From Polyangiaceae bacterium (GTDB lineage: Bacteria; Myxococcota_A; Polyangia; Polyangiales; Polyangiaceae): a stretch of DNA of 64,000 bases. How positions within the stretch are numbered: position 1 is the first letter of the stretch; the number at the start of each line of letters is the position of its first letter. The stretch is from contig JADLEQ010000025.1 of NCBI GenBank assembly GCA_020846005.1, positions 1 through 64,000 on the forward strand, in the 5' to 3' direction. Positions 32,211 to 39,196 of the stretch are shown in pieces. Below the pieces are notes generated by a model. It was not told where the DNA came from. It saw only the letters and a program-made list of their open reading frames with translations, and made no database searches. The position numbers and the translations under genes are program-made.

Positions 32211-32594
32211 TCACCCCGGGGTCGCGCACGCCTCCGAGCACCGCCCGGTGAGGCGCAGGCGGTTGGCCGCGAACCGCTCGTAGCCGAAGTCCAGCGCCTG
32301 CCGGACCCCGGGGAGCCGGCTCATCGCGACGAGCGCACCGAACCCGACCGCGCCATACAGCCGGCGGAACACCTCGACCCCCTCGATCCACGTACCGTCG
32401 GACAGCCGCCCCTGGATACGCCGCATCAGCGCCTCTTGCGTGGAGCCGATCGAGGCCGCGTCGAACTCCGGCGCCGCGATGTCCGTGAACCGGATGCGAC
32501 CCGCGCGATCGAGCCGCCGGAGCATGCGAATCTCCCGCGCGCAGAGCGGACACTCGCCGTCGAAGAAGACCTCCACATCGTGCTGAGCTGCCAT
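32211..32594 (-). CDS. DCC-family thiol-disulfide oxidoreductase-like protein (DUF393)
   Basis: 127 aa. [16 protein letters not shown] at residues 10-25 is the family's D-x-x-CPxC signature, followed by FTDIAAPEF and the conserved helix region [21 protein letters not shown] proteins have a thioredoxin-like redox motif (CPLC) but their partners are poorly known. It is divergent from the seven-gene radical SAM operon with 116 bp between. A functional link to that operon's redox chemistry is possible but unproven. Confidence 0.88.
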
Positions 32595-32696
32595 GCCCGT
32601 CTCGTGCGGCCGTCGTCCGGAAGCGTCAAGGCGCCCCGCGCGCCAGGCGCGCGCGCGATCGAGGCCGCGCCCGCGAGGCCGGCGGCCGGCATCTGT

Positions 32697-32702
32697 TAGA
32701 GT
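32697..32702 (+). promoter_or_regulatory. Putative -10 hexamer of the radical SAM/glycosyltransferase operon
   Basis: TAGAGT lies 8 nt before ATG 32711 with no Shine-Dalgarno. It is the only promoter candidate seen for the seven overlapping genes. Confidence 0.4.
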
Positions 32703-32710
32703 GCCGGCTC

Positions 32711-33049
32711 ATGGTGACGGAGCAGGAAGGCGTCGAGCTGCTCGCCGGGATCTTCCGGGGAGCGGGCCTCGAGATCGTGGAGAGCTTCGATTTCCGCGAG
32801 GGCGGGGTGGTCGTCTCGCTCGATGGCTTCGATCCCGTGGCGCGGATCGGCTTCGAGTACATCACGACCGAGGCGGGAGACCGCGAGGAGCTGACCCCGG
32901 CCGTGCTCGCCGAGCTCGAGCTCCGGATGCGCGCCGAGGAGCTGTTTCTGTTCCTGGTGGACGAAGGCGACATCCCGGACCTCGCCGCGCTCGCCGCGGC
33001 GGCGCGCGGCTTCCTCGCCCTGCTGCGCGATCGGGGCAGGCTGCCGTGA
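32711..33049 (+). CDS. Uncharacterised 112-aa protein, first gene of the operon
   Basis: 112 aa, acidic and soluble, without a signal peptide. It has an alternating helix/strand pattern: GVELLAGIFRGAG, GGVVVSLDGFDPVARIGFEYIT, then EELTPAVLAELELRMRAEELFLFLVDE. No family is recognised, and it does not look like a modified-peptide precursor (no core rich in Cys, Ser, Thr or Gly at the C-terminus). It starts seven plus-strand genes that overlap at every junction. Its stop overlaps the next GTG start by 4 nt (GTGA), which implies coupled translation. Confidence 0.78.
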   Translation: MVTEQEGVELLAGIFRGAGLEIVESFDFREGGVVVSLDGFDPVARIGFEYITTEAGDREELTPAVLAELELRMRAEELFLFLVDEGDIPDLAALAAAARGFLALLRDRGRLP

Positions 33050-34353
33050 GCGCGTACGGCGTCGCGCAATTCCTCCAGGCGGCCGCGCACCAGCGGCAGG
33101 CCCTGCTCCACGAGGCGGGCGTCGCAGAGCACTACGGCTCCATCCACCGCCAGCGGCGCGCCGAGCTGGAGCGGGCGCATGTACAGGCGGTCGCCGACGT
33201 AGGGGTCGTGCTCCTGCGGGAGCTCACGCCAGAGTGGCTGGACTACGCGGTCCGAACGACCGGGCTCGCCGCCCTCGCCGCCGAGAACCCGATCTCGATG
33301 CGCGAGGCCGAGCGCCAGAAGCGCCGGCAGCGCCTGGCGCAGATCGAGGCCGATCCACGCTTCGCCCAGCGCGAGCTGCTCCGCCACCCGCGCACCGGTT
33401 CTCTGCCGCGCGGCATCGCCGAGATGCACGAGCACCTGGCACCGATGGAGGCGATCCTCAACGCGTGCCAGCACCCGCGCCTCGATCGGCTCCTGCAGTC
33501 AGGGTACGGCACCCCGTCGTACGAGACGGGGTTCTGGCGGCTCAGCTACTACGCCGACTGGAAGGCCGGCGACGAGATCCTGGCGCGATTCCCCGACCGA
33601 CAGTTCTTCTCTCAGGTGCGGGACGAGTATCTCCGCGCGTGGCACGCCCTCGGGCCACTCCGAGCCGAGCTCGAGCGCCTGCGAGCGGAGGTGGCGGCGG
33701 GCGAGGCGCTCGAGCGTGAACACGCCGAGCTCGGCGCCGGCCTCGCGACGCTCGACGAGCGCTGGCTCGGCCACGTTCGCCAGCGCCTCGCGGCGTTCCT
33801 GACCGAGTGCCCGCCGGAGTCCATCGGCCCGCGGCTCTCCGGGCAGCCGGAGCTCGAACTCGCGTACAAGCGTCTGCTCGGCGTCGCGGCGAAGACTCGT
33901 TACCTCGACGGCATCCACGCTCACTATGTCGCCGAGGCGCAGCGCGAGATCACGCTCGCCATCAACCGCCTCGACCGCGACGTGGGCAAGGCGCAGCGCC
34001 CGAAGAACGCGCGCATGACGTTCCCGGCCGCGACCTTCCAGAAGCGCTTCCGCGACCGTGCGCCTGCGTACGGCAAGCGCTGGGCACGGTTCGAGAAGAC
34101 GTACGGCACCGTCCAGGGGTTCCAGGCCTACCACCTCGCCGCGCTCGGCGCGGGCTTCCTCTGGTGGGATCTGATGACGGACGGGCGCATCCTCGGGGAC
34201 TTCCTGCCGGAGGTGCGGTCGTTCCGAGACTCCCACCCGGGGTATCGCTGGCAGGCTCCGGCGGACGCGGCGGACGAGGACGACCTGCTCGCCGCGGCGA
34301 CGGCCGCCGGCGTCCCCGACGATCCGCTCCGCCCGCGGGGCGACTACTCGTGA
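33046..34353 (+). CDS. Uncharacterised 435-aa protein, second gene of the operon
   Basis: 435 aa, soluble and rich in Arg, Glu and aromatic residues. It opens with a predicted long helix (AAAHQRQALLHEAG, RQRRAELERAHVQAVADV). A middle region, WRLSYYADWKAGDEILARF, is followed by a coiled-coil-like segment (LGPLRAELERLRAEVAAGEALEREHAEL). The C-terminal part has FRDRAPAYGKRWARFEKTYG and GFLWWDLMTDGRIL. There is no signal peptide and no known motif. The start is GTG 33046, overlapping the previous stop. It could be a substrate, a scaffold or a novel enzyme of the operon; the sequence does not say which. Confidence 0.8.
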   Translation: MSAYGVAQFLQAAAHQRQALLHEAGVAEHYGSIHRQRRAELERAHVQAVADVGVVLLRELTPEWLDYAVRTTGLAALAAENPISMREAERQKRRQRLAQIEADPRFAQRELLRHPRTGSLPRGIAEMHEHLAPMEAILNACQHPRLDRLLQSGYGTPSYETGFWRLSYYADWKAGDEILARFPDRQFFSQVRDEYLRAWHALGPLRAELERLRAEVAAGEALEREHAELGAGLATLDERWLGHVRQRLAAFLTECPPESIGPRLSGQPELELAYKRLLGVAAKTRYLDGIHAHYVAEAQREITLAINRLDRDVGKAQRPKNARMTFPAATFQKRFRDRAPAYGKRWARFEKTYGTVQGFQAYHLAALGAGFLWWDLMTDGRILGDFLPEVRSFRDSHPGYRWQAPADAADEDDLLAAATAAGVPDDPLRPRGDYS

Positions 34354-35813
34354 GCCGCTCGCTCCGCGTGGTGGCCTACGCGGTGAACGGCGCCGGCGCC
34401 GGACACCTCGTCCGGCTGGTGGCGATCGCGCGCTGGCTCCGCCGGTACGCCGCGTGGTCCGGCGTGCGCCTGGAGGTGTTCTTCCTCACCTCGAGCGAGG
34501 CGGATGGCCTCCCGCTCTCGGAGCGCTTCGCCTCGTTCAAGCTGCCGTCCAAGACGATGGTCGCTGAGGCGCGGATCGACAAGACGACCTACCTCGCGCT
34601 CGCCAAGCAGTGGGTGTGGCAGTCGATCGCGCTCCTGCGGCCGGACCTCTTCGTGGTCGACACCTTCCCGGCCGGCGCGTTCGGTGAGCTCGTGAGCGCG
34701 CTCGACCTCTGCCGGCGGCGCGCGATCGTCTACCGCCCGATGCTCGAGGAGCACGCGCGGCGCCCCGAGGTGCAGGCGCTGCTCCCGCTGTACGATCGCA
34801 TCCTGATCCCGGAGAGCGAAGATCACGGCGGGGTGCTGGTGCCCGCGGCGGCGCGCGGCCGGTCCCGGTTCGTCGGCCCCGTCGCCGTGCGCGACCGCGT
34901 GGAGCTGCCGAGCCGTGAGGAGTCGCGCGCGCGCCTCGGGCTCCCCGCCGAAGCGCGCGTCGCCTACGTGTCCGCTGGGGGCGGGGGGGACGCGCACGCG
35001 GGGCGCCAGCTCGCGGCGGGGGTCGAGGCGCTGCTCGCGGTCGATCCGGAGCTCCGGGTGGTGCTCGGGGCCGGCCCGCTCCATCGGGGTCGCCTGCCGC
35101 GCGGCCCACGCGTCACGCCGCTCGTGCACGAGGTCGCCGCGGAGCTCGCGCCCGCCTTCGACCTCGCCGTGAGCGCGGCCGGGTACAACGCGTTCGTCGA
35201 GCTGATGCTGGCCGGCGTGCCGACGGTCTTCGTCCCGCAGCCCAAGATCGCGGACGATCAGGCGGCACGAGCACTCCGCGCGGTCCGCGCCGGGGCCGCG
35301 CGCGTCGTCGAGGATGGAGCGCCGGCGGCCGAGCTCGCCGCCGCCGCTCGCGCGCTGCTCGAGCCCGCGGCCGCCCACGCCGCGTCGCTCGCGGCGCGCG
35401 CGCTCGTGCCGAGGAGCTGCGCCCGCGTCGCCGCTGCTGAGCTCCTGCGGCTCTGCCTCCCCGCGCCCGAGGTGGATCGCGCGGAGGCGGCCGTGACCGA
35501 CGCGTTGCTCGGGCGCGCGGGCGCGCTCGGCGTCCCCGAGGAGCTCCTCGTCGAGCTCATGCACGCGCTCGACGGCGACGGCGGGCACGCCTCCCCGGCC
35601 CGGGAGCTCGGATCCCTGCTCCGCGCTGCCGGCGCGATCGTCGAGCTCGCGCGCGCGGAAGGAGCCCCGCTCGAGACGCTGGGCGCTGCCGCGCACGACG
35701 CTGTGCGGCGCCTGCGCGACGCCTCCGTCGAGGACCGGCGCTCGGCGATCGAGCGCGTCGTCCTCCGCGAACGCGGAGCCGCGGGAGGGGCAGGGGAGGC
35801 GCGGCCGTGCTGA
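34350..35813 (+). CDS. GT-B glycosyltransferase-like protein (MurG/GT28 type)
   Basis: 487 aa. The N-terminus VVAYAVNGAGAGHLVRLVAIARWLRR is the glycine-rich acceptor-side motif of MurG-like GT-B enzymes. Around 273-305, VSAAGYNAFVELMLAGVPTVFVPQPK matches the donor-binding 'S-x-G-x-x-x-x-E...G-x-P' block, followed by DDQAARA. The last 100 residues are Ala/Glu/Leu-rich helices beyond a normal GT-B. GTG 34350 overlaps the previous stop by 4 nt. The acceptor and sugar are unknown. Placed between an unknown protein and three radical SAM enzymes, it probably decorates the same product. Confidence 0.82.
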   Translation: MSRSLRVVAYAVNGAGAGHLVRLVAIARWLRRYAAWSGVRLEVFFLTSSEADGLPLSERFASFKLPSKTMVAEARIDKTTYLALAKQWVWQSIALLRPDLFVVDTFPAGAFGELVSALDLCRRRAIVYRPMLEEHARRPEVQALLPLYDRILIPESEDHGGVLVPAAARGRSRFVGPVAVRDRVELPSREESRARLGLPAEARVAYVSAGGGGDAHAGRQLAAGVEALLAVDPELRVVLGAGPLHRGRLPRGPRVTPLVHEVAAELAPAFDLAVSAAGYNAFVELMLAGVPTVFVPQPKIADDQAARALRAVRAGAARVVEDGAPAAELAAAARALLEPAAAHAASLAARALVPRSCARVAAAELLRLCLPAPEVDRAEAAVTDALLGRAGALGVPEELLVELMHALDGDGGHASPARELGSLLRAAGAIVELARAEGAPLETLGAAAHDAVRRLRDASVEDRRSAIERVVLRERGAAGGAGEARPC

Positions 35814-36883
35814 GCGACGAACGCTCGCGCGTCCTCCAGGGCATCGAGCGGGGCGCGCCGTTCCACGGTCCGGAGACGATCCACGTCGACGTGACCAACG
35901 CCTGCCACGCGAGCTGCGTCACCTGCTGGGATCACTCGCCGCTGCTGCGCGTCGCGCGCGCCCCCGAGTGGAAGCGCCGACGGATGGCCCCGGAGCGCCT
36001 CGAGGCGCTCCTCGACGACGCCTCGACGCTGGGCGGCCTGCGCAAGATCATCCTGAGCGGGATGGGCGAGCCGTTCGGCCACCCCGACATCGAGCGCCTG
36101 ATCCAGGCGGTGAAGTCGCGCGGCCTGCACCTGACGGTGATCACCCACCTGACGCTCGCCGATCCGGCGCGCGTGGTGGAGCTCGGGGTCGATCAGCTGC
36201 TCGTCGGTGTCCACGCCGCGAGCGAGGCCGCCTATCGCGCGTTCCATCCTGGTTTCCGCGGCGACGAGTGGCGGCGCCTCGTCGCCGCGCTCGGGGTGTT
36301 CCGCGCCGCGGGGCGTCGGTTCAAGCACGTGCAGGTCATCTGCAGCACGAACGCGCACGAGCTCCCCGAGATGGTGCGCTTCGCCGACGAGCACCGCGCG
36401 CACGGGATCACCTTCAAGCTGGCGAGCCTGCGGGACGGCACGGAGGCTCGTCGGATCACCGAGGACCAGCGCGCGACGCTCGTCGCGGACGGCGTCCCCC
36501 GGGCGCGGGCGCTCTCGGCAGAGCTCGGCGTCGCGACGAACCTGGACGTCTTCGCCCGCCAGCTCGCTGCGGGCGGCGCGGAGACGGCGCCGATCTCGGA
36601 GATCGGCTGCTTCATCGGGTACACGTACGCGCGCGTCACCGTCGACGGTACGGTGCTCTACTGCTGCGATCCGGCGATCGTGGTCGGCCACCTCGACGAG
36701 GCGAGCTTCAGCGAGCTGTGGTCCGGGCCCCGGTGGGCCGAGCTCCGCGCCCGCTTGCGCCGTGGCGAGTACCTCCCGCGGTGCGGCCAGTGCGGGAAGC
36801 TCGCGCAGAACGTCGAGCTGCGTGAGCGCTTCACGCAGAGATACGGCGAGGACCGGGCGCGCGCCGTGACGGGGGCGCGGTGA
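35807..36883 (+). CDS. Radical SAM enzyme with SPASM-like C-terminus (RS1)
   Basis: 358 aa. The [4Fe-4S] triad is Cys33-Cys37-Cys40 (NACHASCVTCW). LSGMGEPFGHPDI is the GGEP-equivalent SAM site. After the barrel come further Cys residues: GCFIGYTYARVTVDGTVLYCCDP and LPRCGQCGKL, the pattern of SPASM/twitch auxiliary clusters used in peptide or cofactor modification. GTG 35807 overlaps the glycosyltransferase stop by 7 nt and the next start overlaps this stop by 4 nt. The reaction is unknown. It is not closely similar to the next two radical SAM proteins. Confidence 0.9.
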   Translation: MLSDERSRVLQGIERGAPFHGPETIHVDVTNACHASCVTCWDHSPLLRVARAPEWKRRRMAPERLEALLDDASTLGGLRKIILSGMGEPFGHPDIERLIQAVKSRGLHLTVITHLTLADPARVVELGVDQLLVGVHAASEAAYRAFHPGFRGDEWRRLVAALGVFRAAGRRFKHVQVICSTNAHELPEMVRFADEHRAHGITFKLASLRDGTEARRITEDQRATLVADGVPRARALSAELGVATNLDVFARQLAAGGAETAPISEIGCFIGYTYARVTVDGTVLYCCDPAIVVGHLDEASFSELWSGPRWAELRARLRRGEYLPRCGQCGKLAQNVELRERFTQRYGEDRARAVTGAR

Positions 36884-37728
36884 GCCGCCAGCCGACGGTC
36901 GAGTGGCAGGTGTGCGGGACCTGCAACTACGACTGCAGCTACTGCATCCAGAGCCGGAAGTACCGGGTGGGGCACCCATCGGAGGCCGAGATCGATCGGT
37001 TCCTCGAGTTCTACGCGGGGCTCCCCGGGGGGTGGGAGATCAAGATGACGGGCGGCGAGCCGTTCGCGTTCCGCGGGTTCCTCGCGCGGATCGTCCCCGG
37101 GCTCGTCGAGAGGACGCCCCACCGCGTCTCGGTCCTCACCAACCTCTCCGCGCCCGTGACGGCGCTCGACCGCTTCGCCGAGCTCACCCGGGGGCGGCTC
37201 GAGATCGTGAGCGCGAGCCTCCACCTGGAGCAGGTGGACGTGGTGGACTTCCGAGACAAGGCGCTCCGGCTCCGCGAGCGGATCGACGCGCGCGCGCGCC
37301 TGATCGTCAACGCGGTGCTCGTCCCCGGTCGCCTGGAGGCCGTGGAGCGCGCGAAGGAGCTCCTCGAGGCCGTTGGACTGCGCCTGTACCCGCAGGTGAT
37401 GAAGACGAAGCATGGGGTCTCCGCGTACGGAGGCGCCGACACGCAGCGGCTGCTTCAGCTGCTCGGCCCCGCGCCGACCTCTCGCACGGCCAACGTCGCG
37501 CCGAGCCACCACGGTCGCGCCTGCTGGGCCGGAGCGGAGTACCTGGTGGTGACGCAGGCGGGTGACGCCTGGCGCTGCCGAACCGCCCGGCGCGCGGGCG
37601 AGGGCCACCTGGGCAACGTCCTCGAGGGGACGGCCCGGCTCGCGGGCGGGCCGTCGCCGTGCCCCTACACGATCTGCCCGTGCGCCGTGCCGGAGAACCG
37701 CGGGATGATCGAGGGGCGCCCGGCGTGA
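36880..37728 (+). CDS. Radical SAM enzyme (RS2), sister of RS3
   Basis: 282 aa, short for the superfamily. Cluster Cys15-Cys19-Cys22 (GTCNYDCSYC), then KMTGGEPFAFRGF as the SAM site. The barrel includes VSASLHLEQVD. The C-terminus has CWAGAEYLVVTQAGDAWRC, then a PCPYTICPCAVPENRGM block whose Cys could hold an auxiliary cluster. This C-terminal plan (CWAG...C...PC..-C-C-VP..RGM) recurs in the next gene. GTG 36880 overlaps the RS1 stop. The substrate is unknown. Confidence 0.9.
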   Translation: MSRQPTVEWQVCGTCNYDCSYCIQSRKYRVGHPSEAEIDRFLEFYAGLPGGWEIKMTGGEPFAFRGFLARIVPGLVERTPHRVSVLTNLSAPVTALDRFAELTRGRLEIVSASLHLEQVDVVDFRDKALRLRERIDARARLIVNAVLVPGRLEAVERAKELLEAVGLRLYPQVMKTKHGVSAYGGADTQRLLQLLGPAPTSRTANVAPSHHGRACWAGAEYLVVTQAGDAWRCRTARRAGEGHLGNVLEGTARLAGGPSPCPYTICPCAVPENRGMIEGRPA

Positions 37729-38675
37729 CGACGCCTGCTGGCGCGCCGCCCCGCCCCGCCGAGGGCGTCGTCGCGTGGAACGTCGGCACGGCGTGCAACT
37801 ATCGCTGCTCGTACTGCACGCAGCGGGGGAAGGCGGACCGCGGGCGCTGGGCCGAGGACCTCCCCGCGTTCCTCCGCGGGTTCGCGCGCCTCGAGGGGGA
37901 CTGGGAGGTGAAGCTCTCGGGCGGCGAGCCCTTTCAGCACCCGCGGATCGTCGACCTCGTCCGTGGGCTCGCCGCGCTCGGGCGGCGGGTGTCGGTCGTG
38001 ACGAACTTCTCGGTGTCCGAGGCGGTCCTCGAGCGGTTCGTCGACGCGGTGGGCGATCGCGCGGGGACGTTCTCGGCGAGCCTCCACCTCGAGTACGTGC
38101 GTGACCCCGCCGCGTTCGCTGCGCGCGCGGCGCGCCTGCGGCGCGAGCTCCGCGCGCGCGCCGGGCGGTCGTCGCCGCCGCCGGGCGTCAACGTCACGGT
38201 CGTGGCGACGCGCGCCGCGCTCGAGCGGCTCTCCGCGCTGGATGCGTGCTTCGCCGCGGAGGGCCTCGCGCTCAAGCTGCAGCCCGAGCGTGAGGATGGG
38301 CGCCGCATCGCCTACACGCCGGCGGAGCTCGCGATGATCGCGGACCGGGGCGGGCACCAGGGCCTCGGCGACGTCACCCACGGGTTCTTCGGGCGGCCCT
38401 GCTGGGCGGGCGCCAGGTTCTTCATCCTCGATCACCGGGGCGAGGCGTATCGCTGCTACCCGGCGCGCCGGGCCGTGCTGGCGCCGCTGCGCGCCTCCGG
38501 CGGACGGATCGCCGATCCGGAGCGCGAGCGCACGCTGGGCCGGCTGGGCTCCTTCCTGGATCCGGCGTTTCGGCTCCCCGGAGCGCCCGCGCCGTGCTTG
38601 CATCGGAGCTGCTACTGCTCCGTCCCGATCGCGAGAGGGATGATGGCGCGAACACTCCCCGAAGAGGTGGCATGA
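37725..38675 (+). CDS. Radical SAM enzyme (RS3), sister of RS2
   Basis: 316 aa. Cluster Cys24-Cys28-Cys31 (TACNYRCSYC), SAM site KLSGGEPFQHPRI, and SASLHLEYV matching SASLHLEQV in RS2. The C-terminus has CWAGARFFILDHRGEAYRC and then a PCLHRSCYCSVPIARGM block, clearly paralogous to RS2. GTG 37725 overlaps the RS2 stop by 4 nt (GTGA), and this gene's stop is overlapped by the lipoprotein ATG. Tandem sister enzymes suggest two similar steps on one substrate, or one heteromeric enzyme. Confidence 0.9.
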   Translation: MTTPAGAPPRPAEGVVAWNVGTACNYRCSYCTQRGKADRGRWAEDLPAFLRGFARLEGDWEVKLSGGEPFQHPRIVDLVRGLAALGRRVSVVTNFSVSEAVLERFVDAVGDRAGTFSASLHLEYVRDPAAFAARAARLRRELRARAGRSSPPPGVNVTVVATRAALERLSALDACFAAEGLALKLQPEREDGRRIAYTPAELAMIADRGGHQGLGDVTHGFFGRPCWAGARFFILDHRGEAYRCYPARRAVLAPLRASGGRIADPERERTLGRLGSFLDPAFRLPGAPAPCLHRSCYCSVPIARGMMARTLPEEVA

Positions 38676-39196
38676 AGTACACGACGTTCCGGGCGCTGGT
38701 CGTCGCTGGCGTGGTCTTCGCCGCGCTGGGCAGCTGCGCCACCTGCGTGGTGGTCCTGGGCTCGACCGATTCGCCCCCGCCGCCGAGCACCACCGCGCCG
38801 GGTGCGCCGGCGACCACGATCGGCGCGTCCATGGCGGGTGGCGGCGCGCCCAGCGTCACCGCGACACCCGGCGCGCCGCCGGCGTCGGTGGGCGCGAAGG
38901 AACTCGCGGTGTCCGCCTTCGAGCGCGACGTGCTCGCGGTCGCGGCTCGCCCGCTGTCCGGCGACAAGGGCAAGGACGCGCTCGGCCCGCGGGGGCCGAA
39001 GGTGAACCTGTACCGCGACGCGGGCGAGCCGAAGGTGAACCGTGCGAAGGTGGATCTCGATCGCGACGAGCGTTGGGACGAGAAGTGGACGTTCGAGCGC
39101 GCGGGCGGCGTGAAGCGCCAGATCGCTCCTGCAGACGACGAGAGCTATACCGTGGAGTACGAGCTGGCGGGTGGGCAGTGGCGACGCACGCGGTGA
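38672..39196 (+). CDS. Small exported protein or lipoprotein, last gene of the operon
   Basis: 174 aa. An N-terminal hydrophobic segment (TFRALVVAGVVFAALGSCATCVVVLG) holds Cys residues in a weak lipobox (LGSC). It may equally be a membrane anchor. A Pro/Thr/Ala/Gly-rich linker (about 30-75) follows, then a charged domain (PKVNLYRDAGEPKVNRAKVDLDRDERWDEKWTFE) with Asp-rich, calcium-binding-like spacing. ATG 38672 overlaps the RS3 stop by 4 nt. Being translationally coupled to the radical SAM genes, it may be the operon's envelope-facing component. The function is unknown. Confidence 0.78.
   Translation: MKYTTFRALVVAGVVFAALGSCATCVVVLGSTDSPPPPSTTAPGAPATTIGASMAGGGAPSVTATPGAPPASVGAKELAVSAFERDVLAVAARPLSGDKGKDALGPRGPKVNLYRDAGEPKVNRAKVDLDRDERWDEKWTFERAGGVKRQIAPADDESYTVEYELAGGQWRRTR

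Follow-up and report, generated by a model that had tools for sequence, protein, structure and literature searches.

In mycofactocin biosynthesis, the C-terminal residues of a ribosomal product are modified by a radical S-adenosylmethionine (SAM) enzyme of the SPASM type, and the operon, whose genes always co-occur, includes a glycosyltransferase (PMC7491314, PMC3023750). In the TglA or PEARL pathways and with AmmA, too, the product is assembled at the C-terminal end of a ribosomally made scaffold (PMC9016710, PMC11117183). The system analyzed here is a seven-gene operon on the forward strand of contig JADLEQ010000025.1 from a Polyangiaceae bacterium (assembly GCA_020846005.1), positions 32711-39196 of the 64,000-nucleotide (nt) stretch of DNA that was studied (the window). 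It encodes, in order, the proteins P1 and P2, a glycosyltransferase (GT), three radical SAM enzymes (RS1, RS2 and RS3) and P7. An earlier interpretation of the window, the sequence-only reading, described seven open reading frames (ORFs) overlapping by 4, 4, 7, 4, 4 and 4 nt; all seven are present on the forward strand, and the coordinates and overlaps are exactly as it claimed. Its view that no described pathway has this set also held, since no known family's curated cut-off was reached and a literature search returned no paper on this gene set or on STM4011/STM4012, the locus to which RS2 and RS3 are distantly related.

P2 (435 residues; 33046-34353, +) is modelled as an all-helical protein with a predicted local distance difference test (pLDDT) score of 93.7, and predicted disorder is confined to the last 14 residues (422-435; 34309-34350, +), a flexible tail with pLDDT below 50 that ends in Ser. 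The terminal D-Y-S codons, GAC TAC TCG (34342-34350, +), mark the proposed acceptor or recognition site. In an alignment of 45 rows with 30% mean column identity, only Leu149 and the terminal Ser are invariant. P2 closes with Ser at 46 of 46 loci and has Asp at position -3 in 36; position -2 is mostly hydrophobic or Ala, and the tail before it varies, with much Ala, Asp and Ser. Sixteen more homologues also end in Ser, comprising eight from loci collected after the pattern had been noted, two others and six divergent sequences. The Ser end, mostly D-x-S-COOH after a hypervariable flexible tail, is found in 62 of 62 P2 sequences with a GT partner; these sequences are related and the counts are not independent trials, though the tails have diverged beyond alignment. 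As background, 30 of the 251 other cassette proteins (12%) end in Ser and eight (3%) in [D/E]xS. The terminal Ser is written with five codons (TCT, TCA, TCG, TCC and AGC) followed by any of the three stop codons, the P2-GT gap spans -4 to more than 1200 nt, and GT lies upstream of P2 at two loci (L013 and L041); this diversity of codons, stops and gaps rules out gene overlap as the cause of the Ser.

GT (487 residues; 34350-35813, +) is a MurG/UGT-like enzyme of the GT-B fold. The Glyco_tran_28_C domain (PF04101) is matched at 32.4 bits against a cut-off of 22, as expected from the sequence-only reading, and the donor-site residues Asn280, Glu284, Gln297, Asp302 and Gln304 are invariant among 47 sequences; the MurG model TIGR01133 scores 35.8 bits, far below its cut-off of 250.25. 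A C-terminal extension (residues 371-487; 35460-35810, +) is present in GTs paired with P2, whereas the strongest GT relatives in genomes lacking P2 do not have it, and relatives in four such genomes (G133, G134, G156 and G157) align only to positions 2-373 of the 547-position model. The extension may therefore bind P2, as judged from these alignments. Plasmid and viral collections held no informative relative of GT.

P2 and GT also travel together. In order-level samples of 184 genomes (P2 search) and 179 genomes (GT search), P2 and full-length GT occur in the identical 18 genomes (Fisher p = 4e-25), and in a phylum sample of approximately 370 genomes they occur in the identical 37. A strong P1 match is found in 15 of the 18 P2-bearing genomes of the order, and P1 is missing from about half of the loci. 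RS1 is present in 11 of the 18 genomes, as is the RS1-RS2-RS3-P7 block. The remaining seven genomes have P2 and GT without RS1, without cassette-level relatives of RS2 and RS3 and without P7 (other radical SAM proteins are weakly matched in three, and P7 is matched marginally in one). Because these seven genomes keep P2-GT without the RS genes and P7, P2-GT is the core, P1 is accessory, and RS1-RS3 with P7 form an added layer. The terminal Ser of P2 is retained in all seven, which ties it to GT rather than to the radical enzymes.

Proteins beside related glycosyltransferases bear on the same link. In four genomes lacking P2, a protein of 196-207 residues, W1, lies directly upstream of a GT relative; it has no detectable relation to P2 and ends in DYDVS or DYDIS after a variable stretch. 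The W1 system (L170:4106-10807, and the same in L169, L171 and L172) comprises a GT28-like gene, a 1235-residue fusion of GT28-like, GT4 and radical SAM/SPASM domains, and a further radical SAM/SPASM gene, and the fusion supports serial action on one substrate. In genome G472, a 129-residue Cys-rich protein with a tail rich in Asp, His and Ser ends in EQDMGAS and is encoded directly upstream of a distant GT relative (L181:579-1993). Conversely, genome G363 contains a normal P2-GT pair and a second P1-P2 pair without a GT in 14 kb (L180:5890-7459), whose P2 paralogue stops after the conserved body, ends in PRPTAAG and has lost the tail and its Ser. Since W1 and the Cys-rich protein end in Ser and the P2 without a GT lacks the tail, these cases agree in linking the Ser-ended tail to GT.

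The distribution was followed from an RS2 query against the GTDB species genomes, which returned 70 loci, some 45 being close relatives; whole-genome P2 searches added more, and gene order was assigned with iterative profiles. Approximately 50 collinear copies of the cassette, whole or partial, were found in Myxococcota, Acidobacteriota and single metagenome-assembled genomes (MAGs) of other phyla, with the recurrent order [P1]-P2-GT-RS1-RS2-RS3-P7 and junctions that mostly overlap or adjoin. As this order and these tight junctions recur across dozens of divergent genomes, the operon exceeds chance. The hosts are mostly metagenome bins, and all close RS2 relatives from the GTDB search are labelled as MAGs. 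Most hosts are either uncultured Myxococcota or members of a supported clade, largely of Acidobacteriota sequences, which also holds one MAG labelled cyanobacterial and one without a name. Bin contamination was considered as the source of the cross-phylum spread and set aside, because most of the Acidobacteriota sequences form this one clade; from the sequences, the spread to at least Acidobacteriota looks real. For phyla represented by one bin each, such as the single MAGs labelled Spirochaetes, Cyanobacteria, Anaerolineae and others, the host assignment is uncertain.

The RS block stands apart from P2-GT at three loci, and in two of these genomes P2 is located elsewhere; in the genome of L053, P2-GT and RS-P7 are at separate loci yet co-occur. 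The conserved set envisaged by the sequence-only reading thus stands as a collinear arrangement recurring in many genomes, full cassettes included, and does not stand as a single seven-gene unit, since P1-P2-GT or P2-GT alone occurs in seven genomes of the order and its two proteins of no known family are to that extent found without the radical SAM genes. Among the genes flanking the cassettes, none was shared widely enough to name a pathway. Near two P1-P2-GT loci without RS1-RS3, a different radical SAM enzyme, of the CPQCPRN type, occurs (L011:12752-13822 and L033:1082-2143), and a common family with weak GT2 similarity lies near P2-GT loci without RS1-RS3 (L013, L033, L037:1500-3326 and L041:11032-12507).

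RS1 (358 residues; 35807-36883, +), RS2 (282 residues; 36880-37728, +) and RS3 (316 residues; 37725-38675, +) all match PF04055 and carry the CxxxCxxC cluster motif, which is invariant in all three families. In agreement with the claim that RS1 is SPASM-like, Pfam assigns it a Radical_SAM domain at 51.8 bits and a SPASM domain (PF13186) at 43.3 bits, above the gathering score; Cys33-Cys37-Cys40 and Cys268, Cys286, Cys287, Cys326 and Cys329 are invariant in 44 sequences. RS2 and RS3 were correctly recognized as sisters. They share 37% identity and a conserved C-terminal plan, CWAG...C...C-x4-C-x-C-x-VP..RGM, and their cysteines are invariant (RS2, Cys15-Cys19-Cys22, Cys215, Cys233, Cys266 and Cys268 in 44 homologues; RS3, Cys24-Cys28-Cys31, Cys226, Cys244, Cys291, Cys296 and Cys298 in 40). 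These C-terminal patterns differ from that of RS1, and neither protein matches SPASM. At one locus the two are fused in a single 613-residue ORF (L080:9941-11779). No NCBIfam model came near its cut-off, the best being W_rSAM_matur for RS1 (68 of 380 bits), STM4011 for RS2 and MurG for GT. A role in anti-phage defence was rejected because PADLOC matched viperin models over their radical SAM core alone: pVip is matched across no more than residues 15-97 in RS3 and 6-91 in RS2, and viperin_w_prok reaches 38 bits against a cut-off of 180. In two divergent loci, a related 366-residue lipoprotein-like gene directly follows RS2 (L073:2392-3492 and L074:10908-12008), and a contig from an Elusimicrobia MAG carries approximately ten radical SAM genes in a row, several of them distant relatives of RS2 and RS3 (L089:174-12712).

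Pfam contains no family for the 112-, 435- or 174-residue proteins (P1, P2 and P7), as the sequence-only reading had held for the first two. The structure-based search that it had suggested for P2 gave only generic helical or coiled-coil-like matches: there was no confident match in the PDB (best Foldseek E value 0.065), and the best Z score was 9.6, among helical bundles, where values below about 13 mean little. P1 (112 residues; 32711-33049, +) gave a more specific result. Its model has a pLDDT of 92.7 and its best structural match is the catalytic domain of I-Bth0305I (Z = 9.5, 3.3 Å over 96 residues); the model and the structural matches display the alpha-beta-beta-beta-alpha-beta core topology of PD-(D/E)XK nucleases. 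The catalytic Lys of (D/E)xK is missing, with no conserved Lys or His after Glu49 or elsewhere in 25 homologues, and P1 is taken to be an accessory protein, with a nuclease-like fold in its model. Upstream of P1, a divergent intergenic gap of 116 nt (32595-32710, +), the sole upstream non-coding gap, is the presumed promoter region of the operon. The gene beyond it (32211-32594, -) is transcribed in the opposite direction and encodes what we take, by eye, to be a protein resembling the DCC1/DUF393 thiol-disulphide oxidoreductases.

Taken together, the gene content and sequences suggest protein-tethered glycosylation followed by radical tailoring, a tentative reading to which we give slightly less than even confidence. 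P2 would serve as the carrier, with a folded helical body from which a long flexible arm extends to its D-x-Ser-COOH end. GT would dock on it, probably via its C-terminal extension, and would move a sugar from a nucleotide-sugar donor onto the C-terminal Ser. In full cassettes, RS1 and the RS2/RS3 pair would then alter the tethered sugar or the terminal residues by radical chemistry, and P7, membrane-anchored and EF-hand-like, would receive, present or depend on the product at the envelope. In this scheme we infer which site accepts the sugar, in what order the reactions proceed and what P7 does. Regarding the substrate, the cassette flanks contain no conserved small ORF, which eliminates a separate precursor peptide; the earlier statement that a precursor with a modifiable core cannot be seen holds for the flanks but needs revision for the P2 tail, which has the anatomy expected of a precursor. 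The alternative raised at the same time, that the 435-residue protein is itself the substrate, has gained real support from the invariant C-terminal Ser. A broader generalization, in which structurally unrelated carriers with a flexible D-x-Ser arm have a sugar built on their C-terminal Ser by a dedicated MurG-like GT and rearranged by radical SAM enzymes, is rather unlikely, though conceivable; in it the C-terminal Ser would be the attachment point of a swinging arm, much as the prosthetic group is in acyl carrier proteins.

Several points weigh against protein-tethered glycosylation. The MAG of L057 has RS2 and RS3 with P2 undetected. The Cys-rich carrier at L181 is a single case, with Gly rather than Asp at position -3, and L180, the sole P2 without an adjacent GT, is likewise a single case. 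The closest characterized glycosyltransferases, MurG and the UGTs, act on lipids and small molecules, the terminal Ser could serve as a binding or stability signal rather than as a glycosylation site, and RS1-RS3 could act on P7, their strict companion, instead of P2. The proposed chemistry is, moreover, inferred from genes and sequences.

Two of these objections can be developed into rival explanations. In the first, the D-x-S end of P2 would serve for docking or stability and be recognized by GT, by a protease or by some other partner. P2 itself would be a structural scaffold bringing GT and the radical enzymes together, and these would act on a free sugar nucleotide, a lipid or a small molecule. 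The lipid or small acceptors of the GT relatives MurG and YjiC fit this explanation, as do the helical nature of P2 with its coiled-coil-like matches and the weak matches of RS1 and RS3 to the sugar-nucleoside decarboxylase BlsE. However, docking motifs seldom require one exact last residue across such divergence, and the Ser terminus recurs on unrelated proteins beside related GTs; we regard this explanation as unlikely.

The second concerns P7 (174 residues; 38672-39196, +), which has a conserved N-terminal membrane-anchor segment (MK[FY]xTFR...) and an EF-hand-like DLDRDxxWDEKW domain. The acidic loop, D-L-D-R-D-E-R-W-D-E in the alignment (39053-39082, +), may bind calcium. In the manner of ribosomally synthesized and post-translationally modified peptides, RS1-RS3 would modify the repeated domains of P7 before export, with P2-GT a separate accessory module. 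P7 follows RS3 in nearly all cassettes whose contig extends far enough and is single-copy in the genomes of the order that have the RS genes; its domain occurs in one to three copies in homologues, as in multi-core precursors (two or three in L045, L049, L051, L060, L063, L066, L080, L083 and L084), and the RS-P7 block is able to stand apart from P2-GT. Nevertheless, the terminal Ser of P2 would be left unexplained, the conserved loop resembles the acidic loop of EF-hands, whose role is an ordinary structural one, and P7 is membrane-anchored, with neither a leader nor a protease site that is obvious; this explanation seems unlikely.

If protein-tethered glycosylation is correct, an enzyme that glycosylates specifically the last residue of a protein would represent a new type of protein glycosylation and might be used to label C-termini, and the terminal Ser makes the question directly and cheaply testable. 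Approximately 10% of the Myxococcota genomes sampled, and Acidobacteriota as well, carry the P2-GT core, and its three radical SAM enzymes make this undescribed pathway a promising place to look for new radical chemistry.

The resemblance to mycofactocin lies in the shared logic of a C-terminal core, a SPASM enzyme, a glycosyltransferase and a small helper protein (PMC7491314, PMC3023750). It could be taken further, with the modified terminal residues of P2 cleaved off to give a small glycosylated redox cofactor, and RS1 does match the mycofactocin maturase model TIGR03962 weakly along its length (31.4 bits; cut-off 265), but this is very unlikely because the residue preceding the P2 Ser varies widely, the peptidase MftE and the dehydrogenase MftD have no counterpart in the cassette or in the families that recur in its flanks, and the precursor would be a 435-residue folded protein ending in D-x-S instead of MftA, of about 30 residues with a Val-Tyr core. 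No short precursor with a Val-Tyr C-terminus accompanies the cassette. The mycofactocin glycosyltransferase, furthermore, belongs to GT2 and that of the cassette is GT28-like, and here there are three radical SAM enzymes. The scaffolds of TglA or PEARL and AmmA are short peptides, and their pathways start with a ligase that adds a tRNA-derived aminoacyl group; the cassette has no such ligase. As distant relatives of STM4011, of the STM4011-STM4012 locus (NCBIfam NF038073), 42 of 44 RS2 and 39 of 40 RS3 members match that family, but RS2 itself scores 54.6 bits against a cut-off of 200; the STM4011-like relatives at L090, L098 and L104 have a different neighbourhood without P2, GT or P7. GT shares with MurG and the UGTs (GT28 and GT1) the GT-B C-terminal domain and the conserved Glu/Gln donor-site pattern, and it differs in its additional C-terminal extension and its strict pairing with P2. 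In its workings the system would most resemble mycofactocin or the pathways that build on a C-terminal scaffold, but without their defining features. Judged from the sequences, the single protein superfamilies are known, and what is new is the gene system and its architecture, which fall outside each of the known kinds with which they were compared.

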